Notes under the pieces: model-generated
Database searches by the model: none
The model's input: the letters and a program-made list of their open reading frames with translations, nothing else
What the model was told of the DNA's origin: nothing
Source of the DNA: Ectocarpus siliculosus
Taxonomy: Eukaryota; Sar; Phaeophyceae; Ectocarpales; Ectocarpaceae
Length of the DNA: 57,364 nt
Assembly: GCA_000310025.1 (NCBI GenBank)
Contig: FN649755.1
Span: forward strand, 3,720,387 to 3,777,750
Reading direction: 5' to 3'
In this document: positions 1 through 56,280 of the stretch, one piece after another
Layout: every line of letters begins with the position of its first letter
Position numbering within the stretch: the stretch's first letter is position 1
Translations under genes and position numbers: made by a program

Positions 1-2314
1 AGGAGGAGGATGAGATTGAGGAGGGGAGCGAAGAATCTGGGGATTGCCAGCCAGTGCCGGTAAGGACATTCACTCGTTCAGAAAACATGTGCTGGTAGTT
101 CTTCAGTGACGCTGCGCAGGCCGAAATAAAACAAACCAGACGAGTTTTTACCATCCGCGCACAACAACCGCACGGACAACCAGTCCCCCCTCCTAATTGG
201 TATTCGTGTATTTTTCCAGTGAATCCCGGTGAGGTCATGCACCCCATTCAGTCAAGACAACCTTCACTCATGCTGTCGTTAAAGAAGCCGATATCACAAG
301 AGTATCGAAACCGAAATCAAACCAGTGGTCTAGGCTTGTTCTTGGATATTGTTTTTGTATGTTTTGCGTTGGTCGCCGTACCATGCGTTTCTCATACTTT
401 CTTCGTGTGAACAGCAGAAAATTGTTCGCTCCTCCCCCGAAATGGTATTCCATTCGATCTGTGTGAATGAGGAGTGAATTCAAAGAAGCCCCTCTATTGT
501 AACGCTATCGCAAATGAGCAACCGCCGCCAGTACCAGCGGCTATGGCCACCCGGCAGTATGGTAACGCCACTTGCTAACCCCCGTCTTCCTATTTCGGCG
601 CCTTAGCTGCTGCCCTCGCCATGCTCAGTTCACAAAACGCTTTTGGTGACCTCTCGTTTCGATTCTGTAGCTGCTCCGCTCCCATAGTTTTGGTCATTCG
701 ACGCCCTCCCTCACTTTTCCATCTCGATGCTGCAGCTGTTGCCCTCGTCATGTTCAGGCCACACGACACTTTCTGACCTCCCCCCCATCCCCATATGGTC
801 CATGTCAATGTCTCGGCTGCTGCATCGTGTACTACGGTCACACGACGCTTGCTGACCTCCTTCTTCCCCCTCGTTAACTTCTAAATATGGCCCTTGCATG
901 TCCAGGTAACACCACTTTCTGATCAATTCTTCGTATATACCCCCTCGTTTCCATCTCGACGCTGCTGCTGCAGCTGCTGCCCTCGTACATTCAGGCCACC
1001 ACCTACACTCAGGCGGAGCACCCGGCGTCTTCCCTCGTAGACGGCGACTTGTACAACCGATGGTCCGCCCAGGTGAGCATTTTCGCTCATCCTCCGGAGT
1101 GCTTTTCGAGTTGGGCTTTCATTAAGCTTCCACTAACAGGAGGATATTATAAATAGTACAATAGTCCGATAGACTCATCAAGTTCAATAGGTGACGAGTT
1201 CAACGTGTTGCCGATCGGTTTCGCCAAGCATTGGACGTGCCGTTGGCTTCTGTAATGATGATATGCTGCGAGCAATTTGCAATTTCCTTTCGTAATCTTC
1301 TCCAATCCTGGTGAACCTCACACCCTTGGTCCCGTATATCAACAACCTCAAAACATGTCATCGAGAGATTCTTATTCATGTATATCAGAAAAAACGAGAA
1401 AAGACCGAGGCGTCTGTACATTGCACTACTACGAAATGAAGTGATTTGTCACGAAATGAATTGGTTTATCACGTGATCTTTGCGAACCTCACAACTCTCA
1501 ATTGACTTGATTTCACTATGGTCGATTCACATCTGACGTATGACCTTTGTTTACTATGGTCTTTGTAAGCTCACAACTCGCAAATTTCTTGACATTGTCA
1601 CGACCGACTTCATTTCATCACAAATGACTTTAATTCAATTATGGTGCAGGGCACCGGCGCGTGGTTTTCCGTCGAGCTGCCGGAGGCGGTGGTGTTGTCC
1701 GGGATGAAGCTGTGGTTCGAGGATGGTGACGAGAGGCAGCAGAAGTTCACAACTGTCTGTGTTGGCAGTGGAGAGGTAACGCAGCAATCACCAACGACGC
1801 TCATAATAGTGCGGCAACTTTCACAACTCTCGTAACGTTCCTCGCTGTATGCATGAGATGAAATATTTATTTTAGAAGTAAAGCAGCAGAGAGTAGATAA
1901 ATTTCTCGATATGTGAACCACATAAATTGCTGAACACGCACGACAACGAACAATGCCACGCACTGATACTTGGATTCGAGTATGTACGCAGGGCGATGAA
2001 GATTGATACTTGCTGACATTTAAGTATTGTGTTGGTTGGGTGGTTTCTGGCATCCAATCAGGTAACTCATTGATAGGGATTGTCTCAACCGGGTGTTTCG
2101 TCGTGCCCAATCCATCAGGTTATCCTTCAGGAAGAAGAGAGCGTGATGGGGGAGGCCGGAGAGGGAGAGTTCTTCCCATTCCAAGAAGAGATGCTGATCA
2201 AGTCGGTCATGATCGTGGGATACGGGAATACCATCAACGACTGGAATAGGTGAGCACAGCCGTACGTTCTACGTGACCTGAGATGCTCACAGAGTCGGTC
2301 ACGGATTATTGTCG

Positions 2315-2362
<48 letters not shown>

Positions 2363-3816
2363 TCTTCACGTTTATAACCATTCCGACCTCTCTACCCAGT
2401 ACCTTTATCAGTCCGTATGCTTGACGCGGTCGACTGCCGGAGGTTCACAGGTTAGCTTTCCAGAAAAAGGTACCTGGTATACAACAATTTTAAAATGGAT
2501 CCGTCGTGGGATATAGAGGAACTGTACACGATTGGAATAGATCGGTGTAGTGGTATCTCGCGTTCTCTACGTTGTCCGGGGTGTGTGGGCTCTACCAAAT
2601 TCGCTGCTCTTGGTAGAAACAAGAGACCCTGCTAGATTCACTTCGGGCAATCCTGTAGCGTTCTACAAATATCCTCTACCAGGTTTACTGCGGAAAACAG
2701 TGTAGCGCAATTGGCCCTACTAAAATACATTCGCCGTGAGCACTAGTGTAGCGCCGTGCCAACGATATCTAGCCCCTTAAATATATGGCCCCCAGACGAG
2801 GTCAGCCGCCGCCGCTTCGAGTGAATGGACATGTTTGGGGCGGCGGGGATGAGTTGTCGGTGCCAGTGTGGTTCTTTGCACTTGAACAGTCGTACTGGTA
2901 TCTGCTCAGCACTTTGCATTTTCCGTACTAGTCCAAGAACCCCTACTGCGGGCGGCCGCACGCTATGTAGCCACCTCACTTCTGGGTACGGAAAGAAAAA
3001 GGACCCAGAACATTCGATGGTGCCTACCAAAGCAGTCAAGACGTTGCTTGTCTGTGTAAGATTGACTTGGGCTATAAGGAATGAATCGAAAAAAAATGAA
3101 TGTGAAGCAATGATGTTTGAAAAATAATGAATCGAGAAGCAATGATGTTTGCGTCGGAATGAATCGAGGATGACGTCGTCCCACGAAGAACACGTGGAAT
3201 GTTCGCTACAGTAGATGGACCGGACGACGAGACCACTCGCTTAACAGTGAGCGGTCTAGATGAATGTCTGGAATCATTTTTTGGAGCGAATGTATTCACG
3301 GAGAACGCCTTGCATTTTCGCTAACCGTAGATGGACGGACCAGCCATCTGCGCCAACCACATAACAGAGCGTGGTCTTGAATGTTCGAACGGTGTCATCC
3401 GAAATGAATCTGGAAGAGCAACCCGTAGCACCTCGCTGGTTAGACTTTTGGCCTCTGGATATGTCTTTCCTACCGTAGACCGTAGACGTCAAGTCCATCT
3501 GGCTTTCAAACGCAAGTACTAGATGTGTTTTTGAAGGGTTGGGTTTGTCGTCATATGACGCCAAGGCGTCTCCTCAATCACCTGAGCCTTTTTTCTCCAG
3601 TACTGGATGTGTTTTTGAAGGGTTGGGTTTGTCGTCATATGACGCCAAGGCGTCTCCTCAATCACCTGAGCCTTTTTTTCTCCACCATCCCGTGTGTGCG
3701 CGCGCGTGTATACATTTCGTGTGGGAATGAACCATCTGACTATTTTCAGCATCAACGAGATCTGGCTGTGTGAAGGAGGCCAGGAATCTTCCAGGAAACT
3801 TCTGGGAAACATCTAG
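1..3816 (+). CDS. Discoidin / F5/8 type C domain protein, 3' part of gene
   Basis: Five exons join in phase: 1-59 (enters from the left), 995-1072, 1650-1775, 2131-2249 and 3750-3816, with TAG at 3814. All four introns are GT-AG. The first exon reads an acidic linker (EEDEIEEGSEESGDC). The remaining ~130 residues form one galactose-binding-like beta-sandwich, about the length of a whole F5/8 type C domain. Family hallmarks seen are DGDLYNRWSA (the DG..RWSA motif), GTGAWFSVELPEAVVLSGM (the W-I-x-V-D-L-G strand) and a closing INEIWLCEG strand (family I.EIEV.G). Such domains bind sugars, often cell-wall or extracellular polysaccharide, at the C-terminus of secreted enzymes; the partner domain lies left of the window. 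The last exon is short but matches both phase and the expected final strand. The family call is an inference from motifs. Confidence 0.7.
520..994 (+). repeat. Degenerate tandem copies of the exon-2 acceptor region
   Basis: The true acceptor of the discoidin gene at 994/995 lies in the last of about six degenerate units of roughly 65-80 bp. A clear upstream copy at 724-780 repeats the pyrimidine/CTG tract, the CAG and the first exon bases (GTTCAGGCCACACGACACT against ATTCAGGCCACCACCTACA). Weaker copies start near 530, 603, 668, 800 and 890. Confidence 0.55.
2311..2361 (+). repeat. (GTT)n microsatellite
   Basis: About 16 GTT/TTG units in the last intron of the discoidin gene. Confidence 0.9.
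3516..3684 (+). repeat. Near-perfect 84-bp tandem duplication
   Basis: Two adjacent copies begin at 3516 and 3600 and differ by about one substitution and one T in a poly-T run. Each unit contains the palindromic core GTCATATGAC. It lies in the last intron of the discoidin gene, 65 bp before the terminal exon, and looks recent. Confidence 0.9.
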
Positions 3817-6390
3817 GGAATCTTCTTGGTGGCGGTCCGCGGTGGACGGAGACGTGAGTGGTCTACTGAATTTTACGTGGGATTATCAGCTGGGATTTAT
3901 CGTGCTGTTGTAGAGAGTGGGCAACGCCTGCCTGCCAATCGTGAGTTTTGGTCCTGTACGAATATTTTTTTTTGTGCAAGGATATTTTGTCGGAAGTATC
4001 CGGCGGCAGATTGTCCATTCAACACGCGGCACCTTCTTGTGGCATTTCTTCACTACGCAATGCGCATAGTGGTCGACCTTTTTTCAGTTGCATCATTTTG
4101 TGGGTGGCGTTCGCTCTGTTCCCGGAGTATTTGTAACGTTGATGAAGTGGATGTTTTCGTCGAAGAGGCTTTCGTGCCGTCAAATATCACACTATCCTCC
4201 TCGGTGCTACCTCCATGGAATGCGTCTCCCACGTGATGAAACTACGACGGCACGTATCGGACAGCGATGAACCTATTACCACCGAACATTCCGAGTGATG
4301 CATTTACCATAGCGCATGCATCTCACGCGCGATGAAACTGTTTGTCCAGGAGTATCTCACCCGTGATGAAAGGTACGTGTGAACGGTGGTAGTCAATGTA
4401 GTAATGTTTCCCAACACTGCTGCCCAATGCCCCAAAAGTACAGACCGCATCAAGCGTACTCAGCCTGATATCTTGTTCTCGCCCCGACTTTGCTCAGGGG
4501 GGAGGCGGTGCAGGTAACGCGGAAGAGGCGCAGATATCTATCACCGGGGGTGGGTTCACAAGTGTTGACGCCTCGCCGGCCGCCTCCCTCACCTATGTTC
4601 CTTCCCCACGCTCATGCCTGATGATTTGTTGGCGTTTCTCGACGGAAACAGACGACCCACGCCCCGCCACAACCTCTCGTTCAACATCGGCCGTGCCCAT
4701 GGGGGTCCCGTAAATCGACAATTCCAACTGGCAAGGGCCCCGCTGGTGGAGAGGGAATCAATTTGTAGATAGGAAGGCTTTCCGTGTGTCAGTCGCGGGG
4801 TCGCTGAGGAAGCTGCGGGCACTGTTGTAGATATCCTGGTTTTTCTGTCGCAAAAACACGGGGGCTTCTCTTGCAATGAATTCATGTAGTACAACGTCTG
4901 GTGGTTAACGACTTCGTGCAGTACAACCTCTTGGGGTTGTTAAACCAACGGGGGGTTTTCTCTTGCCTTTGCTTCATGCAGCAGTACGTGTCTGGTGGTT
5001 ATTACAACAACAGGGTTTCCCTTGGATTAACTTCATACAATACAAGTTTGGTGATAAGTACCATAACACACACACATACGTAGGACGGGGGTGGTAGGGG
5101 ATCAGGCATACCACGCTCCTGGGGTTAGGATAATACAAACCGGGCGTCTAAGAGCGCGCTAGGCAGCCCAAGTCTGCGTTGCTCTCTGAGTGAGTGAGTG
5201 ATGTGCAATATCCCCCGAAAAGGGTGGTTGTGGTATCATTTTCGTTCAGCCGAGTACTGAGGGCGGGGCTCCGTCGACTTAGGGTGGCCACGTCTGTGCA
5301 CCGTCGCAGCCTCTGTACCATAGCGTAAGGAGGCGTTCGTTCCGTTATGGGAAGACCGGACTCTCGCCCTTGGAGTTAGACCGATATTGTTAGCTATTGG
5401 TAGGAAGGATTTGTTCTTTTCCGTCTAGAATGGGAGAGATGTCGGGCCCTCTCGGCTTTGTGTGAAAAAAATTCTGAACGCCCACGTTCGGATCGTCTCT
5501 TTATTCATGGGTTGAGGGGTTTCTACAACCCTCAATTGAGATATTATTAGGTTCTCGCCGTCGGGGGTGAGGGCTAACGGTTCTGTTGTGGCTCGGGGGG
5601 ATTTTTGAGAGATGTATGGGGTTGCTCTCTCACTCCCGGGTGAGAGCATAACGCAGCGGTCCGGCTGGTGTCCGTCTCAGTTGTCTGAGCTGGGAAACGA
5701 GGAACTTTGGTTCTCGCGTGAAAACATCACATGATTTCACGATTTCGACGGACTGCTTTTCAAGTATTATCACCGTGTTCAGCGCGTGTTTCAACGTTTT
5801 TTTTTCATTCGGAGCATGTCTCGCGCCTTCAGCGCACAGATTTGGTTTTCTTGGTCCCGGGTGTAGCTTCTCCTTCTACATCGGTGTCTTGATCGGACTT
5901 CAATTGAATCGTTATTCATATGTTTCCGCTCCTGCGGTACTTGCGGCAGGATTCTTCTGACCTACATCGTCTACTAACGTAAGATATTGCCGCTAGCTGC
6001 CGCTTTCCTTCGAGAGACAGTTTTTGGTTGGGTTTTGTGTGCGTGTGTGCTGCTCCGTTGGATGGATAAGCCCCCCCCCGTCATATCACGACGGTCCTGC
6101 TGCCCGCAACGGCAAATACAAGTGGGGGGCATCGCGGAGTGCAGTAGTGGTGGTGTGCCGTGGTATTCCCGCCCTTCCGGCGAATGACACTTTTAGTCCT
6201 TTTGCTCGTGCGCGTCGTGGAGCGTCTTTCATTCAGTCATGCTGTCGGAGAAGCGGTCGGGATATAGGTCCAAATTGAGGATGCGCGAGCAGCTCGGGGC
6301 CTCGGGTATTACTGAGCTGGGTATGTAGAGGAAGCTCCTTTTGTCGTGCGCTTTTTGCGTGACCTGGCCAGTATTTTCATGCAGTCAATT
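3817..6390. other. Intergenic, no supported gene
   Basis: I see no convincing gene. One weak candidate coding stretch is on the minus strand between about 4750 and 4600: after an acceptor-like CCACCAG it reads GPCQLELSIYGTPMGTADV and about 30 further residues to a TAG that overlaps a donor-like sequence. It matches no family I know and has no partner exons, so I do not call it. Confidence 0.5.
4850..5060 (+). repeat. Degenerate tandem repeat, ~65-75 bp unit
   Basis: Three to four diverged units carry the motif TTC-ATG/GTG-CAGTAC followed by TCTGGTGGTTA and a GGGTTTTCTCTTG-like segment. It is not close to any recognised exon. Confidence 0.6.
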
Positions 6391-6400
6391 ATGTGGGCGG

Positions 6401-6900
6401 TTGGTTCTAGGGTAGGTCCAGATCGAGGATGCGTTAGTAGCTCGGGGCCTTGGGTGTTACTGGGCTCGACAGTAAGCAGACAGTGCTCCATTTTCGTGCG
6501 TGTTAACGCCGTCATTCAGCCGGCATTTTGATTCAATCAATTATATGGGGAAAGCGATTGGTTCCAGGGTAGGTCCAGACCGAATGCGATATTTAGTAGC
6601 TCGGGGCCTACACTGTAGGGGCTGGATAGTAAGCAAACACACCTTCAGTTTTTTCGTGCGTGTTCACGCCGTCGTTCAGCCGGCATTTTCGTCCAATCAA
6701 TTATGTGGGAAAAGCGGTTGGTTTTAGGGTAGGTCCAGACCGAATGCAATATTTAGTGGCTCGGGGCCTCGAGTGTAGGGGCTGGATAGTAAGCAGGCCG
6801 CCCTTCATTCTTGGTGCGTCATTCAGCCAGCATCGGCCTTCGATCTTGCTGTGGGAATGGTGGTTGGTTCTAAGGTAGGTCCAGATAGAGGATGCGTTAG
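6401..6900 (+). repeat. Minisatellite array, ~146-160 bp unit, four copies
   Basis: Units start at about 6401, 6558, 6718 and 6864, each with TTGGTTCTAGGGTAGGTCCA, then AGCTCGGGGCC and a GTAAGCAGNC segment. Open frames here change from unit to unit and are shadows of the repeat. Confidence 0.85.
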
Positions 6901-9460: not shown

Positions 9461-9467
9461 AACTGCA

Positions 9468-9539
9468 TCTTCGTTTCTCAGAAACTGCATTTTCGTTTCT
9501 CAGAAACTGCATTTTCGTTTCTCAGAAACTGCATTTTCC
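9468..9539 (+). repeat. 22-bp tandem repeat
   Basis: Three perfect or near-perfect copies of TTTCTCAGAAACTGCATTTTCG, with more diverged copies leading in from about 9360. Confidence 0.9.
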
Positions 9540-9708
9540 ACACAGTAAGATTCCAAACCCGAATGAATGCATTGCTCGTTCGTGCTCCTCCAGCGAAGAG
9601 ACAGACATTCACAGTGCCCGGGCGTTGTCCACTTCCTCTGTCGGCGAAGAGCATGCCGCCAGTAGCACACGTTGTCCGTATTTCCATAGCCCGTGGTCCC
9701 GGCAACAC

Positions 9709-10470: not shown

Positions 10471-10489
10471 CTACGGGAATTCCGTAGTG

Positions 10490-10639: not shown

Positions 10640-10870
10640 GAGGTAGATCCGCCGCCAATCGAAAAGCAGTTCCGCCACCTATCGAACTGCAGTTCCGCCG
10701 CCTCTCGAACAGCAGTTCCGCCGCCAAACGAACAGCTTCACCGCCTGTCGATCACTCCCGTCGCCTATCGAACGGAAGCAGTTCCGCCGCCTATCGAGCA
10801 ATCTGGCCGCCTATCGCACAGTCTGGCCGCCTATCGAACAGCAGTTCCGCCGCCTATCGACTAGTCTCGC
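10640..10870 (-). repeat. Minisatellite overlapping the VPS26-like stop codon
   Basis: About eight or nine units of 18-24 bp (minus strand: TCGATAGGCGGCGGAACTGC) form the start of the 3' UTR. The gene's TAG lies within the first unit (TCGATAGG), so most units repeat the same terminal sequence and stop triplet. Confidence 0.8.
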
Positions 10871-34270: not shown

Positions 34271-34274
34271 GCAA

Positions 34275-38346: not shown

Positions 38347-38408
<62 letters not shown>

Positions 38409-38412
38409 TTTG

Positions 38413-38452
<40 letters not shown>

Positions 38453-40095
38453 CATTGTTGTCGTTGTTGTTGCTTTTGCTGCTGCTGTCATTGTTGAAGG
38501 TAATATCGACAAGATTAGCAAACGTTGGCTAGCTGTGCGTTTTCTACAGGAAGACTTACCTTTCGAGATTTAGCCACAGCAGTCGAAGGGCATGTGTTTT
38601 GAGCCTGTTTAGGCCTACCGTATACGACACAAGATAACACACACCCTGAACCGATTTTCAAAGCTCGATTACTTTAAGACGATACGTTTTCGGAGAGCTC
38701 TCGACGAGACGGTTTCAACGCCACCGTTTTCGGCGCTGCGACTCTTTCTGCGGTTGGGAAGTCGGACTTTGAATATCGGTCCAGGGGGGGGTGTTATCTT
38801 GTGTCGTATTCGGTACTCAGCGATTGTTTTGTAGTGGGAAGAGCAGCGAGGACTGCACGAGATCATATCGACAGCGGTATGTTGCTATCGACAACAGTTG
38901 GCTAACGCGGTGAGATTTTTGTTGCACTTGGGGGAGATGCGGTTGGCGAGGACTGCTGTATGACATCCTTATCGACAACATTATCCATCACATATCGTAA
39001 TCGACAACGTTATGTAGCAGTGCGGTATTTTCGCTGCGAGGACTGTAAGAGATCGTATCGACAACATTAATTACATCCGACGCAATTGACTTCAGACATC
39101 ACATCGACAATGTTATCTTGCTGTCGACAACATTGGCAAAAGCGGGTGCGATGTTTTTGCAGTTTCTGTTGGAGGAGCTGCGGTTAGCGCGGACTGCTGT
39201 ATTTTATCCTTATCAGAGATCGTATCGACAAAGTTATGTATTATGGCTATCGGCAGTATTAGCTAAAACGGTGCGGTATTTGCCACGAGGACTGTAAGAG
39301 GTCGTATCGACAACATCATGTTGCTGTCGACAAAATTGACTTCAGAGATCGTATCGACAACGTTATGTTGCTGTCGACAAAATTGACTTCAGAGATCGTA
39401 TCGACAACGTTATGTTGCTGTCGACAAAATTGACTTCAGAGATCGTATCGACAACGTTATGTTGCTGTCGACAAAATTGACTTCAGAGATCGTATCGACA
39501 ACGGTATGTTGTTGTCGACAAAATTGACTTCAGAGATCGTATCGACAACGTTATGTTGTTGTCGACAAAAATGGCTAGAGCGGGTACGATGTTAATGCAG
39601 TTGCAGTTGGAGGAGTTGCGGGTGGCGAGTACTGCAGGAGGCCGTATTGCCAATATTGACTTAAGAGATCATACCGACAACGGTATGCAGCTATCGACGA
39701 ACTTGCCTAAGGGGGTGCGATTTGTTTGCAGCTGGAGGAAGTGGTTGGCGAGGACTGCAACAGACCGTATCGACAACATGTGCTTGATTTATTCAGCACC
39801 TACAGACTATCGATCTAGTCAAGACCGCTCAGGTTGCAGATGGTCTACCGCAAAACGCCCCTCACGTTGCCAACTTATTTTATCGACAAAAGTGACCACT
39901 GCGGGTGCAAACTTGTTTTGTTTTTTTGTAGTTGGAGGAAGTGCGTTTGGCGAGGACGGAAGGCCTGCGGGAGTGCCTGAGCATCGTCAAGGAGTGCGGC
40001 GAAGAGGCTGTAAAAGAGGCCGGCACGGACTGCATTCGAAGCGTCTCCGATTTCATCGCAGGTATGTTGACCCTAGGTTGTTGTTGCTGTTGCCG

Positions 40096-40127
<32 letters not shown>

Positions 40128-46100: not shown

Positions 46101-49100
46101 GACGTACCTCTTTCGTATGTAGAACTTGTTAAGGACACACCTCGTGTTTTGCTAGCAAAAGTGTCCTTAGGCCGGGGAAGTGTCCTTAAGGTTGATACTC
46201 TTCGTTTTTTTGTGAGCCACCATGCCCGTGAAAAAATATTATCCTTAGCCAAGGGAGTTTCGTTAGTTTTGGTGTCCTTAAAGCGAGGCACAACTGTACG
46301 TGGTACGTACGTAGCACTTGTTAGCCCAACGCTTTCGGTGGCGTTCCTCGAAAATGTGGAGAGTTTTCGTATTTCATTTGCATTATCCCGCGTCAGGGTA
46401 GTCATACATGTACGGGAAGAACGACTGTTGTCCACGCAGGCGGAGGGTTTTCCACATGCGTGCGTTTTCGTGTTGCTCTGGGTCTGTGTTGTTCGTGGCA
46501 GCTAGTGTTCAAGCATACGTCGAGCTGCACTGTAGAGGCGGTACCCGCGAATGTGAACCGTGCCCAGAGAGAGAGAGAGAGAGTGGGCACGTTGTGCGGA
46601 GCAGATGTGCGGAGCGTTGAGGGGCTACGGCATATCACGCGTATCAGACGCCGTAGATCGATGTCAGGACCTACTACACCAACACAACATCCATCAGTAA
46701 ATGTTGCCGATGTCGGCACCGAATCGGTAAAATCCAAAAAAACAGGTTCTCCGGGATCTCCTGAACGTGCTGGCGCAGCCTCCCTGCAAGAGCCGACGTG
46801 TCCAGCGGAAGACCGGGGGCACCGTGAATCGATTAGGGGGTACCGTGACGAGGTTCGGCAGGACGCTTCCTTTGGCACTGGTGGCAATCGCTTCGGTGAG
46901 TAGGGGGGGGGGGGGGATGGGGGGGGTCCCCGCGAATCAGTTAGGGGACACCTTGAATCGATTAGGAGGCACCGTGAATCGATTAGGGGCACCGTGAATC
47001 GGTTATTTAGAGGGCACCGTGACTAGGTTCGGCAACACTCTTTCGATGGCACTGGTGGCAATCGCTTCGGTAGGTTTCGTTGGTGCTGGGGGGGGCGGTC
47101 TGAGAACACGGCTGGTGGAGGTGGTTGTGTTGGTGGTGTTTTCCGATGTTGTGGCTGCTGCTGTGCTCGTAGGTGCCAGATGTTGGTGATGTTGTGTTGT
47201 TGTTGTTGTTGTTGTTGATGTTGGTGGTGTTGGTGACCACGGGAGTGAAGGCACTAGCAGTGATGTGCCCCCCACCCCCCCCGTTTTTGATGACGGCGGC
47301 CGCCGTATTTGCTAGTGTCGCCGGCATTGACTTCCCGTCGGCGTTGTTGGCGGCTGCGTTCGCACTGAAAGGCGCAGCAACGGCAGCAGGAGCACCAGTA
47401 GCACCAGCAGCTTCAACAGCGGCAGCAATCGGCGTTTTACTGCGAATCGTACACTTGCAAAAATAATTCGACATACCTTCAACAGCCTATAGAAGCCGAA
47501 ATCAAACCATTAGACTAGTCAGCGCTGACTAGTCTAATGGTTTGATTTCGCCTTCTATAAAAGTTAGTCGTGGGGTTCGTGAGCCCCGTCACTTTCACTT
47601 CCGAGGAGGGCGACTCCCCTTGCCAGCGCTACTATCCGTCCAATCTTTATTTCGCTTCATATCACTCGCCACCCACATCCTGCAGAATGTTCCAGGGTCC
47701 ACGAGTCCTTCCGTCACCCATACTCTGGCCGAGAGTATCCAGGGTCTCAGGAAAAAAAACGCTTCAAAGTGTTCAGCCTGGGTCTCGAACCCACGACTAA
47801 CTTTTACAGAAGCCGAAATCAAACCATGGTTTGATTTCGGCTTCATCTTGCACGACTATGAGTACACCCCCCCGTTCCTCTCGGGTGAAAAACCCGGCGT
47901 GCTCCGCCTCGGCTTTGTAGGGATGCGAGGTCAATGGTCTCCCCTCGGTGTTTGCCATCGGGATTGGGGTTTCGTCGCTTGGCAACGACGTTGTAAAACA
48001 AGCCAATTCACTTCGTGAACTCGGCAACCAGGTTACCGTTTTTTTTTTTTTTTTTACCTCGTTTTTTTTTTTGGCGGTAACCATAATGGTGGTCGAGTAG
48101 ATCATGTTGTGCGGGGTCGAGAACCCTCACTCCGCGCAACGGGGGATGATCGTACCACGTTGTGTTAAAATGGTCAAGCTTCCTCGAGGCAGTTACACAG
48201 TGCTTACAACTGTCTCTGGAAGTGAAAGCACCAGAAAATAAATTAAGTCATACGTAGCTGTCATCCGTACGCAAGGAAGTAAGCACAAGATGCCGAACAC
48301 CCTTAGCAGGATGCAGCTCACCCTTCATGCGACTCTCCAATTACCTCACGGCGCTTCGCGCTTGGTGATGTGAGAGCCTGGTCCTGTGAGAACCCGGCGT
48401 GCTCCGTCCCGGCTTTGTAGGGATGCGAGGTCAATGGTCTAACGACTACGGCATGCACGACTATGAGTACACCCCCCCCCCCCCCCCCTCCCCTTAATAC
48501 TGTTTGTGGTGCCACATCTACCTTCTTGTTATTAAAAACTTCGAAAAACTTGTGTCGTTGGCGCTTTCGCACAACTGGCCGCAGGCGCGCGTGGGTTTCC
48601 CGATGGACAGGCTTTCTCCGTCAGCGGTGAGGCAGCTATCTCCGGAGAACTTCTACTTCCCGTCGTCCGTGGAGTGCATCGACTTGCTCTATGAGAAGCT
48701 CTTCGTCCAGGTAAGGTACAGCAGTGCTGTACTGCAAGGCGGGATAGGGTACCTTTTTTGGTCGAGCGTATGAGAAGCTCTTCGTACAGGTACTGTAATT
48801 CGGGACACTGTACCTTTTTTGTCGTACTCTACCAGAAGATGATTGTACAGGTAAGGTACAGCAGTGCTGTACTGTAAGGCGGGATACTGCACCTTTGTTT
48901 GCCGGTCGTGCTCCATGACAAGCTTTTCATACAGGTACTGTAAGGCGGGATAATGTACCTTTTTTGACGCGCTCTACGAAAAGCTTTTCGTCCAGGTAAC
49001 GTACAGCAGTGCTGTACTGTAAGGCGGGGTACTGCACCTTTGTTTGTCGGTCGTGCTCCATGAGAAGCTCTTCGTACGGGTACTGTAAGGCGATATAATG

Positions 49101-52100
49101 TACCTTTTTTTCGTCGTGCTCTACGAGAAGCTATTCGTCCAGGTAAGGTACAGTGCTGCGCTGTTAAGGCGGGATAGTGTACCTTTTTTAGGTCGTGCTC
49201 TATGAGGCTCTCTGTCCAGGTACAGTTCAGTGGTGTACTGTTAGGCGAGATATCGTACCTTTTTTTGTCGCAGTCTATGAGAAACTAACTCTCCATCCAG
49301 GCACAGCAGTACGGTCTAGTGATGTACTGTAAGGCGAAGTGAGAGGGGTCGGGGTACCGTGCCTTGTTTGGTCGTGTAATCGGTGTTCGATGTAATTTTT
49401 GCTTGCGACGCACTTGCCCATTGATAATTGTCTTTTCGGCCGATTCGAATCAATATCTTTGCTCCAGGCAGATAAATAGATGCTGGTTGTCTCGCCGTAA
49501 GGCGAAACCATTACCGGTAGTATTTGCTGATGTTCAACCCCGTTTGTTTCCCAAGGAATTAAACCGTGGAAAAACCGTCCCGTGGTACGTACTGTAACAG
49601 CGCCGGCTGCCGGTGTGGATGGGAGGCCGCTTGCTCTCTTGGATGAAGACTACGTTCGACGACACTCACCTCTCTCTGGGGATGTTCTCCCGCCAGGTAC
49701 TTACTGTATGGGATATAGTGTGGTTATAGTAATGCTTATATATTCCATGTTATCTAGGCTATAGCATCACACTAAAGAACCCATATAATAGCATGATACC
49801 GTAGGTGACATAAGATAACACACCCCCCGAACCGATTTTCGAGGCCGGTGTTGTTATTATACTGTATTCCTAGGGTCATGCTAGGAATGGTCGCTATATT
49901 GGTTTGAACGAAATCAAATGGCAAATTTTCTGAAAGCTCGCTCTCGACGAGACAGAGTTCCAACGCAGAAAACCGTAGGTTTGCGTAACATACCACAACC
50001 CGTTGGACCGAATTTCAAACCTCTACACACAGCGCCCGTTCATAGTTTCGGCCAAGGGTGGAGTTGTTACCGTATTCCTAGGGTCATGCTACGAATGGTC
50101 GCTATATATAGGTTTTAGTGTAGAGGCTCTTAACCACTAACAGCTTACAAATGGTGCTCAAGTTCTTGAACTTTGATTTTTTTTAAGGCTCAGTTTCTTA
50201 ACTCCTGGGTTCGTATGTGCAGTCGCGTTCTGTAACATGGTAACCATCGTGCGGTTGTTCACGGTGCAACCGTAGGTTGCGTAAGATATCAGACCTACTG
50301 GACCGATTTTCAAAGCTCGATTACTCGGCAGGCAAAGCGGTGACGGTGCCGAAAATTGCGGCGTTGGAACCGTCTCGTCGAGAGCTTTCCGCTTTCCGAA
50401 ACCCAAACCCATGCGGTCGTTGAATTTCACTTTCTATTTTTTCTTTTGGTGATGTCGAAGGCGACATCGTTTTCGTTCATTTTGCAACGAAAATTGGCAG
50501 CGCTAGAGGACTCATCTTCCAAAAAATTTTCGAAGTGTTGTTGTGCATTTATCTTTTCTGCGTTGTGTCCAGGTGATCATGGCCGCCTTCCTGCACTTCA
50601 ACCGCCCGGCGAGCTACCTCTGCCTTCAGCACTGCCGCCCCTGGCTCTGGAGGTATTAGATGCACATACGGTAGGGGCTCCGTTTTCGGGACCCGCACAA
50701 CGGCATACCCTGTGTAGCCAAACATACCTTTCCTCTCGTCAGCCAATCATATTAAAGCAAGCGGGGTCCTTTTTATTTTCATTTTTATGCTGGTCCTCCC
50801 TCCCCAATACACAGCCTTCCGGCCATCAGCCAATCAGATTGAAGCAAACTGTGGCCTTTCGCTTTCGAGGTGTCCAATCACAGCCTTCCGGCCAACATTG
50901 GCCCGTCCTTTTCGTTTTCCAGGCGTCTGACCACAGCCTTCCGCCCGTCAGCCAATCAAATTGAAGCCCTCATCATTTTCCAGGTTCCCAACCACGGCCT
51001 TCCGCCTGCCAGCCAATCAGATTCGTTTGGTCCGTTTCATTCTTCGCAGGTCCTCCTTGTCGAACTGCCCCGTCGAAGCGATGACCCACATGAAATACAA
51101 GCTGGCACGGGACTCGAAGAGCATGCCGGCTAACACGCTCCAGGCGAGCCTCCCCGGGGTTCCGGCAAGACTCGACCCCCAACAGGTTTGTGTGTGTATG
51201 TGTTATTATTATTAGCATCGAACGCGCTAACCGGCTGACCAATGAAAAGACGTCAGTCTTAGTGCGGTTGAAAACACAAAACACTTATAAATGCCGTTAA
51301 CAACTGGGACCCCGTGAGGGGGCGGCATGGTGTGTGTGTGTGTGCGTGTTTTTTTTTTTCAAATTATTTCTCCATGAAATCTTGTGTTTGTTTATTTTTC
51401 GAAAATATGCATGAGCACTTGTGTGTGATGTTCTTTATAGCATCCACCGCGCTAACTGCCTGACCCATGAAATGACGCCAGTCTCAGTGCGGTTGAAAAA
51501 TCAAACATCAACGGCAACACAACCACAAAACACCAACACCAACAAACGACCACGCCAACAGCTGTCGTTGGTGGGTTGCGCTGTATGCTTTTGTCGTTCG
51601 GCATCCCTTGGTGCCGAGTTCTCTATTTCTATCTCCCTCTCTCCCTCCCTCCCTCCCTATTTCGGGTTATTTGCCGGCTGCTCCTGTTCCTGTGTGTGTG
51701 TACTGGAGCTGTCATGGCAGCGCCTTGAGTTACACATTCGTGCTGCAGCTGGCCAATCAGAACACGTAGCAGAACCTAGTGGGGGGCCCTCAGTACCAGA
51801 GACGACGCAAGATAACACATCCCCTGGACCGATTTTCAAAGCTGGATAACGCCGCGGCGAAGAGGATGCACAAACGAAACAATACACTTTCGGAAAGCTC
51901 TCGACCAGACGGCTTCAACGCTGCCGTTTTCGGTGCTGCGACTCTTTCTGCTGTTGAGAAATCGAGCTTTGGAAATCGGTCCACGGGGGGTGGGTGGGTG
52001 TACTCATAGTCGTGCATGCCGTAGTCGTTAGACCATTGACCTCGCATCTCTACAAAGCCGGGACGGAGCACGCCGGGTTCTCACCGGACCAGGCTCTCAC

Positions 52101-53039
52101 ATCACCAACCGCGAAGCGCCGTGAGGTATTTGGCGAGTCGCATGAAGGGTGAGCTGCATCCTGCTACAAGGGTGTTCGGCATCTTGTGCTTACTTCCTTG
52201 CGTACGGATGACAGCCGCGTATGACATAATTTATTTTCTGGTGCTTCCACTCCGGAGACAGTTGTAAGCACTGTGTAACTGCCTCGAGGGTGCTTGACCA
52301 ATTTGACACAACGTGGTGCGACTATCCCCCTTGCGCGGAGTGAGGGTTCTCGACCCCGCACGACATGATCTCATTCATGGTTACCGCCAAAAAAAAAAAA
52401 GGCTTAAAAAAACGGTAACCTGGTTGCCGAGCTCACGAAGTGATCGGCTTGTTTTTCAACATCGCTGCCAAGCGACGAAAACCCAACCGCGATGGCAAAC
52501 ACCGGGGGGAGTGGCTTGTTTTACAACGTCGTTGCCAAGCGACGAAAACCCGAACCCCGATGGCAAACACCGGGGGGGGGGAGGTCCGGGGAGGGGGGTG
52601 TTATCTTGTGTCGTATACGGTACCGCGGGTATGTGCCTGTTACCGTACATCTAGCGGAGGAACAAAGTAGCTGACGCACGCGGGCCCTCCCATGCTTTTG
52701 GCAGGCGGCGGGATTGATCGAGAAGGGGCTGCGGAGGGAGGCCAGCATGGCTCTGCGGGTGTGGTTCTTCCACAAGGTGGTCCGCAGTAAATAGCGAGGT
52801 GGTCCGCAGTAAATATTGCAACCTTCCCAGGGTTGTTGGTTGAACTAAACTTGTCGGATAATTGCGTGCAATTGTGGGAAGTTGGGTGAGGGATGGGGTC
52901 TGTGTACCCCGTCCCTGATATATTTTCCCCTACGACTCTAAACTTCTCGCAAGAAAGGCGGTCCGTAAGGTGACGCCGAATTTCGCCCCCGTGTTTACGT
53001 TCTTTTTTGGCGGTGGTCGTGCTGCGGTTTGTTGTCGTG

Positions 53040-53092
<53 letters not shown>

Positions 53093-53379
53093 TTATTGCT
53101 GTCGAATTTCGCCCCCATGTTGATCGTCGTTGTTGTTGTTGCTGTTGACCCAAACAACTCACACAGCGACCCAGGTCCTCCAAAACTTCACCACATAACG
53201 TTCGACTGAGTGAGCTTTTATCTCGAACGGGTAGTCTTTCTGTGAGGTTTTGCTTACTTTCTAAAAGCACCTTCAACGAGACTGGCTGCCCCATGTTTCG
53301 GGACGCCCTGCACTCGATGTCGAGATTCCGGGGGCTGCGTGTGTGTGGTGGTAGGGCAGTTGGGAGACGCCCCCCCCGG

Positions 53380-53443
<64 letters not shown>

Positions 53444-56112
53444 TTCAACTCTCTCTGTTGTACAGTAGAGGTGCCTGTTTGGTGCAGGTACAGCAGTATC
53501 TGCCCACCAAATTCACCGGCACAATACCGGATTGGCACGAAAATGGCACAAGATAACAACCCCCCCTGGACCGATTTTCAAATCTCGATCTCTCTCAAAA
53601 GGAGAAAGGTTCACAGCGCCGAAAACGGTGGCGTTGTAGCTGTCTCGTCGAGAGCTTTCCGAGAGTGTATTGCTTCATGCATGTATCCTCTTCGCCGTGG
53701 CGTAATCGAGCTGGGGTGTGTTATCTTGAGTCATATACGGTATTCAAGGCCTTGAGAATGACTTCGAAATTCGGTGTGTGCACGCCGAGAAGACTGGCCC
53801 TTTTCTGGGAACTGGCCTGGCCCTGTTCAATCGGCACTAAACAGGGGTCTCTCTTTTTTTTTTTTCGCTTGAAATTGTCGCTAGCAACATTTGTGCGAAA
53901 ATAATCATCAGTGTAGACCTAAAAGAGACTCGAAATAGACTCGAAATAAGTCCAGTACCCAACCGGTTTTCCTCCACTCACTGAAATGACTCCACCACAT
54001 CCCTTTCGACTGTGGGTAAATCTCGAATGGGTAGTCCTTCCGTGTTTGTATTGATTTTTCCTTAGTACTCCAACCCGGGGTCACACAGAATGTTCCTCTT
54101 CCTGAGACCCCCCCACCCATCCCTCCTGCAGTGCTGTGCCTTCGATTTTTAAAGCGAGAAGAATACAGCACGGACGTACCTCTACTGTACGTAAATAGGA
54201 AGGTCGAGAGGGGGTGATATCTTACGTCACCTACCGTATATGTATCAGGGTCCTGGGGGCAACCGTTGCTCTGCTGTGCTTCTGACAACAAGCTGTCCGC
54301 CTTCAATCACCCCGCTCCTCTGCCCCTTTTTATTGATTATTTAGCATTTACACGTTCGAGATGCAACCACAGTAGTCGAAAAGGATATGCTGGAGTATTT
54401 TGAGTCACTTTTATTTTTGTTGTGGAAAGGTTTGGAATATGTTCCTCAGCTCCTTGGAAACACCCGCCCCCTTATTCTGCAGTTTCTTTTTTTCTCTTTT
54501 TTCCCGAAAAGGTTTGGAACGTACGCCTCAGGTCCTCAAAACCACCCACCCCACCCTTTGTCATCCCCGTGTTACTCTGCGTTTTTTTTTTACCGGAAAA
54601 GGTTTGGAGCGTGCTCCTCAAGTCGTTGGAAGGGCGTGAAACACCCGTGGAACTGCTGAGGATGGCCGACGCGGTTCTGGGACGGCCTGGCCGGCAAGGT
54701 GCGGTACACGCCCCATGTGCAAATCGTATGGGTTTTAGTGTGGTAATAGTAAAACCTATAATATAGGGTCAAGTATGGCACTCTAAAACTCGTATAATAG
54801 CAGGTGTATTGGTTTATGTATAACCATTCTGAATCCTATACAACGAAGCACCATGTGTATGCCGGGCCGGCAAGGTGCGGTGCACGCCCCATGTGCAAAT
54901 CGTACGGGTTTTAGTGTGGTAATAGTAAAACCTATAATATTGGGTCAAGTATGGCACTCTAAAACTCGTATAATAGCAGGTGTATTGGTTTATGTATAAC
55001 CATTCTGAATCCTATATAACGAAGCACCATGTGTAGGCCGGGCCGGCAAGGTACGGTGCACGCCGCATGTGGAAATCGTATGGGATTTAGTGTGGAAAAA
55101 GTTAAACCTTACATTCTTATTCTTTACTGTGTAGGCTCAAGTATGGCAGGTTACAACTCGTATAGTAGCAGGTGTATAGGTTCATGTATTACGCTTCTAA
55201 ATCCTATACAACGAAGCACCATGTGTAGGCCGGGCCGGCAAGGTACGGTGCACGCCGCATGTGCAAATCGTACGGGTTTTAGTGTGGTAATAGTAAAACC
55301 TATAATATAGGGTCAAGTATGGCACTCTAAAACTCGTATAATAGAAGTGTATTGGTTTATGTATAACCATTCTAAATCCTATACAACGAAGCACCATGTG
55401 TAGGCCGGGCCGGCAAGGTACGGTGCAAACCCCATGTGCCAGAAAGGAAAATAAGCCCTACACTAAAACCTACCAGTATATAATATCGTTCATTTGTAGC
55501 CCCACATTAAAACGGGTGTATATCGGCCTTTGCCTTTTGTAGCCCCACACTAAAACCTTTAACCCTCGGTCAAACCTAGAGGTTTTATGGTCGGGCCCTA
55601 CATGTCTGTACAGTCGTGGTCTCGGTTTAGCGGTTCCTTCCCTGTTTAGCGGGACGCCCTGAAAAGCGGTTCCAGAATCCCGTGGCACCGCTGCACCTCG
55701 GTAGTCAAACTTCTGTATATAACTGCCAGTCCGGTTTACCGGCGATGGTCCCAAAAGCGGTGTTAACATTTTGTAACACGTTGGGCCTGTACCGCACTGC
55801 TGCTGCTGCTGCTGCTGCTATTGCCACAGCCGCAGCCGTAGTCGCTTATTCCATCCATTGATTCCTTCCACACCGTACCTCCTCGGCAACTAACTAACCG
55901 TACTGCTGCTGCTGCTGCTGCTGCTTGCTGATGGGTGTGACGGTTCGATCGAATCCGCTTCTTAAGCTGGAGGCACAAGGGAAGGGGCGGGCGCCGGGCT
56001 TGACGTCGGAACGATGCGGCAACGTGCGGTGAAGCTCGGCAGCTCGGTGCGCATTCTCGGCCTTCTTTCCGCTTCGAAGAAGTCCAGGCGGTACTACGCG
56101 GAGCTGAAAGAG
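37355..56112 (+). CDS. ORC3: Origin recognition complex subunit 3, 3' end beyond window
   Basis: Phase-consistent exons: 37355-37444, 38230-38319, 39932-40061, 41556-41639, 42265-42352, 42817-42892, 44953-45125, 45893-45974, 46746-46895, 48585-48710, 49601-49696, 50573-50652, 51050-51185, 52705-52776 (491 codons), then 54602-54698 and 55967-56112. ORC3 is a scaffold subunit of the complex that loads MCM helicase at replication origins; it has a degenerate AAA+ fold. Seen: PQVVAVLRAQDC, then GPVVVLLEDVEGFDKQ (the Walker-B-like strand, family 'PVV.I.ED.E.F'), LPLALVAIAS (family 'P.V.VFGIAT'), RLSPSAV plus FYFPSSVECIDLLYEKLF (family 'LP..V...L....F.FPS....LD'), then FDDTHLSLGMFSRQVIMAAF and HFNRPASYLC (the family's helical insert). 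An acidic linker separates the two halves of the AAA+ core. The C-terminal winged helix is expected beyond 57364. The splice link from 52776 to 54602 is uncertain. Confidence 0.8.
37655..37920. repeat. Fold-back repeat family C, multiple arms
   Basis: AGAAGCCGAAATCAAACCAT-type arms and their complement (TCTAATGGTTTGATTTCGGC) alternate, separated by GGCTCGCGAACCCCACGACT. About three arm pairs lie in ORC3 intron 1. The simplest copy is the palindrome at 47488-47559. Confidence 0.8.
38336..38482 (+). repeat. (CTG)n/(TTG)n microsatellite
   Basis: About 45 CTG/TTG triplets start just after the ORC3 exon 2 donor. Leucine- or cysteine-rich open frames here are artefacts. Confidence 0.95.
38616..38815 (+). 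mobile_element. MITE family A copy
   Basis: A 200-bp copy with well-kept termini: TACCGTATACGACACAAGAT on the left and ATCTTGTGTCGTATTCGGTA on the right. It lies in ORC3 intron 2. Confidence 0.9.
38870..39935 (+). repeat. 47-bp satellite plus copies of the ORC3 exon-3 acceptor
   Basis: An array around GACTTCAGAGATCGTATCGA-CAACGTTATGTTGCTGTCGA-CAAAATT includes five exactly 47-bp-spaced units (39338-39572). Longer units in the same array carry TTGCAGTTGGAGGAGTTGCG-like sequence near 38930, 39162, 39597 and 39730, copying the true exon 3 junction at 39932 (TTGGAGGAAGTGCGTTTGGC). Confidence 0.85.
40246..40458 (+). mobile_element. MITE family A copy
   Basis: The left end is GATATCACACCCCATGGACC and the right end GGGGGTGTGATATCTGTTGC-AACCTACGGTA, with the usual CGACGAGACGGTTCCAA body. 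It lies in ORC3 intron 3. Confidence 0.85.
41860..42085 (+). mobile_element. MITE family A copy
   Basis: The left end is TACCGTAGGTTGCATTAGGT; the right end is GTGGTGTCTTGTGCAACCAC then ATACGGTA. It lies in ORC3 intron 4 and has the opposite body orientation to the 38616 copy. Confidence 0.85.
42930..43085 (+). repeat. ~38-bp minisatellite next to the ORC3 exon-6 donor
   Basis: Four units of CCGTACCGTGTGTGCGGGGT followed by a T-run. It begins about 40 bp inside the intron. Confidence 0.75.
43130..43680 (+). mobile_element. Composite of MITE-A-related termini (subfamily A2)
   Basis: Five termini in alternating orientation read GGCGGAGAGATGCACCCCCC-CTAGACCGGCTTTCAAAGCTC or its complement. They differ from family A in the outer 20 bp (GTAAGAGGCGGAGAGATGGC) and are separated by GTACCGTACCGTATACCGT-like palindromic stretches. 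It looks like nested or repeatedly excised copies. Confidence 0.65.
44378..44598 (+). mobile_element. MITE family A copy
   Basis: The left end is AGTATACGACACAAGATAAC; the right end is TTATCTTGTGTCGTATACGG then TA. It is 33 bp from the next copy. Confidence 0.85.
44632..44855 (+). mobile_element. MITE family A copy
   Basis: The left end is TACCGCAGGTTGCATAAGAC; the right end is ATGTCTTATGCAACCTACGG then TA. Its outer 20 bp differ from the neighbour at 44378 (GGTTGCAT type against ATACGACA type), so these are two sub-lineages side by side. Confidence 0.85.
45126..45450 (+). repeat. ~70-80 bp tandem units starting at the ORC3 exon-7 donor
   Basis: Four to five units with GCAGGTGTGTTGGTGCTATG, CCTGCTTGCCT and GCTACCATACAGCAGTAGG. 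The first unit begins at the donor (GCAG/GTACGCTAGTGCGGC), and later units contain GACGCTAGGGCGAC. Confidence 0.75.
45753..45902 (+). repeat. Three ~63-bp units carrying the ORC3 exon-8 acceptor
   Basis: CATTGCCCCGCAGGGCAGCGGCA occurs with AG ends at 45767, 45829 and 45892. The last is the true exon 8 junction. Units also share CTGAACTATGTTCTGATATT-type sequence and a T-rich tract. Confidence 0.9.
46120..46310 (+). mobile_element. Tigger-like fragment, GTGTCCTTA subfamily
   Basis: AAGGACACACCTCGTGTTTT at the left and, reversed at the right end, TACAGTTGTGCCTCGCTTTA-AGGACAC. Internal GTGTCCTTA motifs repeat. A related piece with AAGGACACTTCCCCGACTTA lies at 24160-24245. Confidence 0.55.
46746..47071 (+). 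repeat. Duplication of the ORC3 exon-9 3' end and donor
   Basis: Exon 9 ends at 46895 in GTGGCAATCGCTTCG/GTGAGT. The last ~60 coding bases and a donor recur at about 47012-47071 (GCACTGGTGGCAATCGCTTC then G/GTAGGT). Shorter GGCACCGTGAATCGATTAGG units lie between and also inside exon 9 itself. Confidence 0.85.
47488..47559. repeat. 72-bp near-perfect palindrome (fold-back family C)
   Basis: Two 36-bp arms meet without a spacer at 47523/47524 (CTAGTCAGC/GCTGACTAG) and differ at one base. It begins TATAGAAGCCG and ends CCTTCTATA. It lies in ORC3 intron 9. Partial arms recur at 47808-47845. Confidence 0.95.
47850..48490 (+). mobile_element. Interspersed repeat family B, copy 1
   Basis: Unit order: TCGGTGTTTGCCATCGGGAT, TTGGCAACGACGTTGTAAAA, CCAGGTTACCG, T-runs, GGCGGTAACC, GTCGAGAACCCTCACTCCGC, GAGGCAGTTACACAGTGCTT, GATGCAGCTCACCCTTCATG, CGGCGTGCTCCGTCCCGGCT, ending GAGTACACC plus a C-run. 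An extra copy of the end segment precedes it at 47850-47942. It lies in ORC3 intron 9. Confidence 0.85.
48690..49310 (+). repeat. About eight tandem copies of the ORC3 exon-10 donor junction
   Basis: Exon 10 ends at 48710 in CTCTATGAGAAGCTCTTCGT-CCAG/GTAAGG. The next 600 bp repeat 'GTGCTCTA(C/T)GAGAAGCT(C/A)TTCGTCCAG/GTA' every 65-85 bp, with GCAGTGCTGTACTGTAAGGC and GTACCTTTTTT between. Many copies keep a credible donor. Confidence 0.9.
49798..50240 (+). repeat. MITE-A end plus repeat G
   Basis: A MITE-A left end (TACCGTAGGTGACATAAGAT) at 49798-49850 is followed by segment G, GGGTCATGCTAGGAATGGTC, at 49870. A second, worn MITE end lies at 49975, and the long G copy (50040-50240) is shared with 28945-29165. 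Confidence 0.65.
50270..50405 (+). mobile_element. MITE family A, 3'-truncated copy
   Basis: ACCGTAGGTTGCGTAAGATA through CCGTCTCGTCGAGAGCTTTC, stopping at a CTTTCCGCTTTCCGAAA micro-duplication. The right half is missing. Confidence 0.8.
50785..51060 (+). repeat. ~55-75 bp tandem repeat ending at the ORC3 exon-13 acceptor
   Basis: Units share CACAGCCTTCCGGCCATCAG and CCAATCAGATTGAAGC, preceded by a junction-like TTTCCAGGTTCC, TTCCAGGCGTCT or CTGGTCCTCCCTCCCC. The true junction TTCGCAG/GTCCTCCTTGT at 51050 follows the last unit. Confidence 0.75.
51797..52622 (-). mobile_element. Family B repeat inserted inside a MITE-A copy
   Basis: MITE-A left end and body run from 51797 to about 51985 (GATTTTCAAAGCTGG to GAAATCGGTCCACGGGGG). 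The missing right end, TGTTATCTTGTGTCGTATAC-GGTA, appears at 52598-52622. Between them lies a family B unit in reverse orientation (52000-52590), joined at G-runs on both sides. Confidence 0.85.
53041..53094 (+). repeat. (CTG)n microsatellite
   Basis: About 16 CTG units followed by a second TTG cluster at 53129-53145, in an ORC3 intron. Confidence 0.95.
53268..53340 (+). CDS. Candidate ORC3 exon, uncertain
   Basis: After an AAAAG acceptor, one frame with high GC at third positions reads TFNETGCPMFRDALHSMSRF plus RGLR before GTGTGT. Its exit phase (0) fits the next firm exon at 54602, but its entry phase (2) does not fit 52705-52776 unless that exon ends at 52760 (MALR-GT, weak donor). Either an extra small exon or a different donor is needed. 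Confidence 0.3.
53383..53441 (+). repeat. (CT)n microsatellite
   Basis: About 29 uninterrupted CT units. Confidence 0.97.
53546..53740 (+). mobile_element. MITE family A copy
   Basis: The left end is GGCACAAGATAACAACCCCC; the right end is GTGTGTTATCTTGAGTCATA then TACGGTA. The inner part of the right inverted repeat is deleted. Confidence 0.8.
53928..54400 (+). repeat. Interspersed repeat family D, larger copy
   Basis: CTCGAAATAGACTCGAAATA, ACCGGTTTTCCTCC, CCCTTTCGACTGTGG and TCTCGAATGGGTAGTCCTTC are colinear with 24689-24815. A second, inverted end with ACACGTTCGAGATGCAACCA is at 54345-54400. Confidence 0.65.
54424..54620 (+). repeat. Three copies of the ORC3 acceptor at 54602
   Basis: GAAAAGGTTTGGAACGTACG-type junctions occur with exon starts at 54430, 54522 and 54602. 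Each continues for 30-40 bases of exon-like sequence (GTTTGGAACGTACGCCTCAG, then TCCTCAAAACCACCC). The last copy is the one that continues into a full coding exon. Confidence 0.88.
54685..55440 (+). repeat. Five copies of the ORC3 donor at 54698
   Basis: The exon end GGCCTGGCCGGCAAG/GTGCGG recurs as CCGGGCCGGCAAG/GT(G/A)CGG near 54874, 55050, 55242 and 55416, in units of about 174-192 bp. Units share CCCCATGTGCAAATCGTATG, TTTTAGTGTGGTAATAG and CAACGAAGCACCATGTGTA. Confidence 0.9.
55609..55770 (+). mobile_element. Tigger-like fragment
   Basis: TACAGTCGTGGTCTCGGTTT-AGCGGTTCC at the left has the CAGT...TTTAGCG terminal signature. CCCTGTTTAGCGGGACGCCC repeats inside. No matching right end is seen. 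Confidence 0.55.
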
Positions 56113-56194
56113 GTATCTACACCCGTGTTTTGTTCTGGCAACTGCAGCGTTTTTGTGCGTTACTATGGTTATAGTTCTTGAACGATGCCTAGTC

Positions 56195-56280
56195 TTCAGG
56201 CTTCTTTCCTCTTCGAAGAATACCAAGCGCTTCTACGCGGAGCTAAAAGAGGTATCTACACCTGTGTTGTGTTCTGGCAA
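56195..56280 (+). repeat. Duplicated, out-of-phase copy of the last ORC3 exon end
   Basis: 56200-56251 repeats the last 51 coding bases of exon 55967-56112 and its donor (CGGAGCTAAAAGAG/GTATCT), and is preceded by an acceptor-like TCTTCAG. Used together, the two copies would break the frame (phase 0 exit, one leftover base on entry), so it is a decoy or an alternative. Confidence 0.85.

Follow-up and report, generated by a model that had tools for sequence, protein, structure and literature searches.

In a 57,364-nucleotide stretch of the genome of the brown alga Ectocarpus siliculosus (assembly GCA_000310025.1, contig FN649755.1, positions 3,720,387 to 3,777,750; hereafter the window), exon-intron junctions of two genes are copied into the adjoining introns. 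The genes encode a Vps26-like protein (10854-21609, minus strand) and ORC3 (37355-56112 and beyond, plus strand, incomplete on the 3' side). The copies are direct repeats that contain the splice site together with coding bases of the neighboring exon. These junction-straddling copies are real, and the structure is one already known and named, the "mirages" of lancelets. In a sample of nine genes, the number of junctions crossed by repeats did not exceed that expected from repeat density. We consider it probable (about 0.8) that such structures are ordinary local tandem duplications whose breakpoints fell by chance on either side of a junction, the junctions themselves being untargeted.

Junction-straddling copies in the adjoining introns

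A sequence-only reading of the window had listed 14 junctions, in three unrelated genes on both strands, at which the repeat in the neighboring intron was said to contain the junction with 8-60 coding bases. Junction-spanning direct-repeat copies were found in the adjoining intron at 12 of these, with identities of about 68-98%: acceptors 995, 13414, 16310, 17330, 18695, 39932, and 54602 and donors 17211, 46895, 48710, 54698, and 56112. At each of the 12, the repeat unit held intron and exon sequence of one and the same junction. Acceptor 45893, which really lies at 45898, was marginal, and no convincing copy was found at acceptor 51050. The Vps26-like gene and ORC3, on opposite strands, account for two of the three genes. 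The third, with acceptor 995, is a weakly supported, unproven candidate; a hand-joined model of it gave a sub-threshold match to F5/8 type C (E 0.0098). Targeted alignment of the junctions of the two window genes returned 25 copies in which the exon part was 8 bases or longer; 23 of these belonged to listed junctions. The overhang at confirmed junctions was 9-80 bases. Twenty-three of the 25 copies scored 26-96 and two scored 23; by comparison, no self-match within 2 kb exceeded 17 when the two gene regions were Markov-shuffled ten times, with equal match and gap costs and a different aligner. The excess over shuffles is one of repeats generally and not of junction repeats specifically.

In the Vps26-like gene (minus strand), acceptor 18695 had one copy at 18835-18943, comprising 67 intron and 45 exon bases with the AG retained. 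Two copies of acceptor 17330 (17487-17600 and 17668-17752; TRF array 17311-17700) carried 23-27 exon bases and both kept the AG; a third at 18124-18199 was weak and without AG. Donor 17211 had three copies in 16703-17107 (TRF array 16704-17252) with 51-72 exon bases and the GT retained, and a fourth, weak match at 15994-16139 without GT. For acceptor 16310, two copies in 16423-16602 included 9-20 exon bases and the AG. The copy of acceptor 13414 (13480-13621) had a 121-bp period, 57 exon bases, and an acceptor score equal to that of the real site. In addition, a 20-23-bp array at 10648-10875 ran across the stop codon (10854). Proteins of related algae are longer at two exon joints of this gene. 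Hapterophycus P0004 carries four additional residues where acceptor 17330 would fall, and Scytosiphon P0002 carries three at the position of acceptor 13414. A shifted acceptor or an annotation error may be the cause; both junctions carry mirages here.

In ORC3 (plus strand), four diverged copies of acceptor 39932 were located in 38886-39755, with 26-46 exon bases and the AG retained in two. Donor 46895 had one copy at 46986-47100 with 80 exon bases and the GT, and donor 48710 had three copies in 48827-49314 with 24-32 exon bases and the GT, along with further partial ones. Four copies of donor 54698 in 54861-55439, with a period of ~176, retained the GT and 14-15 exon bases. The copy of donor 56112 (56183-56336) retained the GT and 68 exon bases. 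Copies stood directly head to tail at several junctions, for example 13414 and 54698. Acceptor 54602 had copies in 54409-54534 with up to ~30 exon bases and 69-75% identity; the junction was crossed in three alignments (74-75%), but the best local alignments of a further run ended at the junction, and this acceptor is absent from the list of 25 copies. At acceptor 45898, the 62-bp repeat (45755-45839) reached only 5 exon bases past the junction. The intronic repeats near acceptor 51050 (50803-50958) did not include the junction: clear repeats ended at least 26 bases before it, and the sole spanning alignment (63%, 7 exon bases) was without AG. A weak match (62%) at acceptor 41556 had lost the AG and was counted as crossed by the automated scan described below. 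Upstream of the ORC3 start codon (37355), two copies in a 171-bp array at 36965-37301 contained an ATG and the following coding bases; with the stop-codon array, this confirmed that a start and a stop codon lie within such arrays. The copy of acceptor 995 (708-770, plus strand) had 15 exon bases and the AG.

Exon 9 of ORC3 (46746-46895) contains a 21-bp coding repeat (GGTVNRL / GGTVTRF), which is also present in the Ectocarpus protein, and the intron after this exon carries an array of a similar unit at 46930-47029. The intron minisatellite seems to derive from the exon motif.

Sequence properties of the copies

The exonic part of the copies was compared with the exon itself. Identities at codon positions 1, 2, and 3 were 0.80, 0.74, and 0.73, respectively (n = 232, 234, and 228; chi-square P 0.14). 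The copies thus show no significant codon-position pattern, as expected for untranslated sequence, and their positions fit the proposal that the outer copy continues the exon and the inner copies are intronic. The AG or GT was retained in 20 of the 25 window-gene copies. A site score at least as high as that of the real site was found for 7 of the 25, and at 13414, 48710, 54698, and 56112, at least one inner copy each had a score equal to the real one. The Ectocarpus sp. proteins contained none of the copied pieces in spliced alignment.

Four stretches were searched against the 189-Mb, 492-contig genome. They matched their own locus only, with the exception of a single 37-base match to a different contig, in a search that skips very common words; the stretch with both copies of acceptor 13414 matched itself only. 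A fifth stretch (900-1400) had one 46-base match elsewhere. For the four stretches, no single family shared by many introns, as expected of introners or mobile introns, was found. The unit differed from site to site, as had been proposed, the four stretches were essentially single-locus, and the searches give good, though incomplete, evidence against a single mobile family.

Junction crossing compared with repeat density

We counted junctions crossed by local repeats in nine genes with 87 introns and 174 junctions, namely, the two window genes (25 introns, 50 junctions) and seven CCT genes on other contigs (124 junctions). The automated scan used a score of at least 18 with at least 8 bases on each side and microsatellites masked, and repeats rotated along the genes served as the null. 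The scan was conservative, since it missed 39932 and 46895, both found by targeted alignment. It counted one CCT3 whole-exon copy twice, and donor 56112 and the gene with acceptor 995 lay outside its intron set. The CCT sample comprised 7 of 10 chaperonin loci grouped from PF00118 matches (the C8, C31, and C45 loci were left out), with exons set by means of solved CCT sequences; several of the seven models were partial, five donors were GC, and a 13-nt exon in CCT1 was doubtful. CCT genes are highly conserved and repeat-poor and are thus not typical.

Across all nine genes, 15 of 174 junctions were crossed (8 donors and 7 acceptors), compared with 19.8 ± 3.9 under rotation (P(≥15) = 0.913; P(≤15) = 0.134). 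In the CCT genes, 6 of 124 were crossed, compared with 4.7 ± 2.0 under rotation and a proportion of 0.043 in intron interiors. With a score threshold of 30, the count fell to 9 (3 of them among the 124 CCT junctions), compared with 16.2 ± 3.6 under rotation. In the sampled genes, no test, whether against intron interiors or against rotation, gave an excess at junctions. These results indicate that junctions in these genes are permeable to tandem duplication but not prone to it, and they do not uphold the idea that junctions are the "seeds" of the repeats.

Tandem repeats with a period of at least 10 made up 12.9% of the window, compared with 3.2% in 180 kb from another part of its contig (C30) and 0-1% of the seven CCT genes (microsatellites masked); that comparison region was gene-poor and served for gene-finder training and repeat density only. 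Many straddled junctions are visible in the window because it is rich in repeats. In the two window genes, 36% of intron bases lay in local repeats and 10.8% in junction-crossing ones; the latter share was 2.9% in the CCT genes. Introns whose junction was straddled were longer (n = 14, median 990) than the others (n = 73, median 554), which is no proof of growth because longer introns give repeats more room. Repeat coverage in the CCT genes was 0.064 in the far intron and 0.048 in the 25 nt of intron next to a junction; exons had 0.043 in their outer 25 nt and 0.011 in their cores. Exon 9 of CCT3 has a 64%-identical counterpart, including both flanks, in intron 8 (locus L029, oriented positions ~6323-6645), which is a decayed whole-exon duplication.

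Gene models and other features of the window

The exons of the Vps26-like gene (11) and ORC3 (16) were set by spliced alignment to Ectocarpus sp. proteins. The Vps26-like gene was aligned to protein P0001, and its exons on the minus strand are 21496-21609, 19723-19875, 19039-19154, 18536-18695, 17211-17330, 16221-16310, 15654-15746, 13313-13414, 12374-12478, 11992-12110, and 10854-11193. The 3' end of the last exon was taken from the gene finder, which also proposed possible extra 5' exons upstream. The first model was 90% identical to an Ectocarpus sp. protein and 79% identical to a Scytosiphon protein, and its match to Pfam Vps26 (E 8.9e-06) was slightly short of the family cut-off. ORC3 was aligned to P0011, a partial record with a precomputed Pfam PF07034 assignment. 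Its exons on the plus strand are 37355-37444, 38230-38319, 39932-40061, 41556-41639, 42265-42352, 42817-42892, 44953-45133, 45898-45974, 46746-46895, 48585-48710, 49601-49696, 50573-50652, 51050-51185, 52705-52779, 54602-54698, and 55967-56112. The last donor, 56112, is a predicted one since the P0011 record is partial there. Eleven of the 13 listed junctions in these two genes coincided with exon edges from the protein alignment, the other two being 45893 (moved to 45898) and 56112. Because 27,888 bases of the joined 85-kb stretch are N, the remainder of ORC3 could not be added; no gene was predicted in the 20 kb downstream of the window.

A self-trained gene finder was also tried as the source of exons. 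It over-predicted at first and later returned many real exons together with a spliced-in decoy copy, and it was replaced by protein spliced alignment.

Between the two genes, at 29278-30223 on the plus strand, exons with a match to a SnoaL-like domain were observed (E 9.9e-05, short of the cut-off). A dispersed repeat occurs on both strands at about 9.8, 13.9, 38.7, 40.3, 42.0, 44.5, and 51.9 kb, with recurring peptides such as "SESSRRDGFNA" and "KALDETV" in its reading frames; it is probably a degraded transposable element. A second dispersed repeat, with the peptide "GIGVSSLGNDVVKQANSLRELGNQ", is present in at least three places (47921-48097, 52446-52577, and 56699-57016); at two of these sites, two units stand in tandem.

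Discussion

Local tandem duplication would account for these structures in the following way. A duplication whose two breakpoints lie in the exon and in the intron, respectively, arising perhaps by slippage, unequal exchange, or break repair, would yield a second copy of the junction. The outer copy (the last at an acceptor and the first at a donor) would still join the remainder of the exon and give a normal mRNA, and the inner copies would become intron, noncoding, open to decay, and able to multiply further. With the protein unchanged, such an event would be nearly neutral, and duplications within an exon would mostly be removed. Junctions are not targeted in this reading, and repeats cross them roughly as frequently as expected from the repeat content of the gene around them. 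Because the exonic part is conserved in Ectocarpus, coding sequence was presumably copied into the intron and not the reverse. The start- and stop-codon arrays also fit, since a model in which boundaries tolerate duplications predicts the same structure there.

Several observations weigh against this reading or narrow it. In the window genes, 9 of 50 junctions were crossed, compared with 15.2 ± 3.3 under rotation (P(≤9) = 0.046) and 0.351 in intron interiors. Even with 39932 and 46895 added, the count would be 11 of 50, still lower than in intron interiors (0.35), and straddling in these genes may carry some cost. Exon cores in the window genes had a repeat coverage of 0.186, compared with 0.211 at exon edges; the contrast is almost nil because a few exons are covered through. 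Codon position 3 was slightly the most diverged in the copies, and the splice dinucleotide was retained in only 3 of 6 copies in the CCT genes. The CCT sample is also small: the 6 crossed junctions come from 5 events, one being the whole-exon copy that crosses two. They are compatible with a true mean of up to about 13, which leaves room for moderate junction enrichment in repeat-poor genes.

If some feature of junctions, such as their sequence, R-loops, or chromatin, promoted tandem duplication, junctions would be hotspots from which introns lengthen. The occurrence of several straddled junctions per gene in the window and the greater length of straddled introns would suit this, with the caveat on room given above, but none of eight genes taken singly showed an excess over rotation (CCT1 and CCT7 were without repeats). 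The nine genes pooled showed none either (CCT4 was also without repeats), and the window genes showed a deficit; we regard such seeded growth as quite improbable. A role for the inner copies themselves, as alternative splice sites in arrays, or as small alternative exons, providing isoforms or tuning expression by way of nonsense-mediated decay, is unlikely. Such a role would draw on the 20 of 25 window copies with AG or GT, the 7 of 25 with scores reaching that of the real site, and a splice-dinucleotide identity of 0.88 on both sides, somewhat higher than at many neighboring positions (8 copies each). It would also draw on the first ab initio model, which spliced a copy near 13497-13535 as an additional exon, and on the extra residues in Hapterophycus P0004 and Scytosiphon P0002. 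However, any of the 25 inner copies, if spliced, would cause a frame shift or stop, although random inserts of comparable length would presumably be unproductive too in most cases. In addition, the Ectocarpus proteins contain no copy, the dinucleotide was kept in just half of the CCT copies, and the lancelet reports (PMC3087553 and PMC3902484) describe mirages without aberrant mRNA.

It is very improbable that the repeats are intron-borne or mobile sequences, either resembling an exon edge by chance or belonging to an introner-like family that imports splice sites. The introns are indeed repeat-rich, but the unit differs at each site, the four stretches searched were confined to their own loci bar the 37-base match, and the exonic part is protein-coding sequence conserved in Ectocarpus, which makes the exon-to-intron direction likelier. 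An artefact of assembly or gene models is barely credible. Nothing specific points to one beyond the facts that the models come from prediction and homology and that a few CCT boundaries have GC donors or the doubtful 13-nt exon. Divergence between the copies and the junction sequence is ~3-32%, unlike that of collapsed or duplicated reads. The exon positions are consistent with Ectocarpus proteins and with solved CCT sequences, and the contigs that have straddled junctions number five (C30, C11, C19, C23, and C38).

The sequence-only reading had stated that no named system like this exists; the mirages, or mirage minisatellites, of amphioxus (lancelet) have the same structure. Lancelet mirages are described in Adh3 and the globin genes BflGb6 and BflGb9 (PMC3087553, which cites the original Adh report of Canestro et al. 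2002), with TnC and PGBD5 added later (PMC3902484). They are said to leave splicing undisturbed, as judged by RT-PCR (PMC3087553 and PMC3902484), and are reported to show length instability between haplotypes or in somatic tissue. In both lancelet and alga, 5' and 3' boundaries are affected (8 donors and 7 acceptors in our nine genes), the units are locus-specific (about 10-160 bp), and many but not all copies carry AG or GT; clean and imperfect examples (PGBD5) likewise occur in both. The algal cases differ in their host, in the presence of several per gene and of start and stop codons in arrays, in the divergence of most copies, and in being known from sequence alone.

Other cases are related at a greater distance. 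In potato RdRp, an intron was gained by tandem duplication across an intron-exon boundary (PMC4974935); there, a cryptic donor within the old exon was recruited for a new intron, whereas here the copies sit in existing introns. In human segmental duplications, internal tandem repeats at exon-intron boundaries were reported, with 27 intron modifications (PMC2812944). As here, units lie at the boundary and are partly spliced out as intron, but recent primate paralogs were compared between copies and the units are often still alternatively retained in the exon. Gao and Lynch (2009) reportedly belong with the Rogers model and the tandem-duplication introns of Drosophila. In that model, one copy is spliced out and the protein is unchanged (PMC2891723). 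This combination of tandem duplication and splicing resembles ours, but the duplications lie within the exon and need an AGGT/AGGY proto-splice site, whereas here the junction pre-existed. A literature search, which covered few subscription papers, recognized no brown-algal report of mirage-like structures; as far as these searches show, the occurrence in a brown alga, the presence of several mirages per gene, and the density test are new. For Ectocarpus, PMC12477816 reports that autosomal introns have a median of 524 bp and that tandem repeats are relatively evenly spread, which fits our density result.

These results extend mirages, described for a handful of lancelet genes, to a distant lineage with unusually long introns. 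Tentatively, mirage formation in brown algae might be a continuing, nearly neutral, genome-wide recycling of coding sequence into introns, which would lengthen introns from their edges and leave many intact, silent decoy sites. It could then be one reason why the introns are several times longer than in other compact genomes, with junctions special only in letting duplications through, unlike exon cores. If the rate seen here (6 of 124 CCT junctions and 9 of 50 window junctions) holds genome-wide, junction-crossing repeats would contribute measurably to intron length and would supply numerous natural tests of spliceosomal choice among similar tandem sites.

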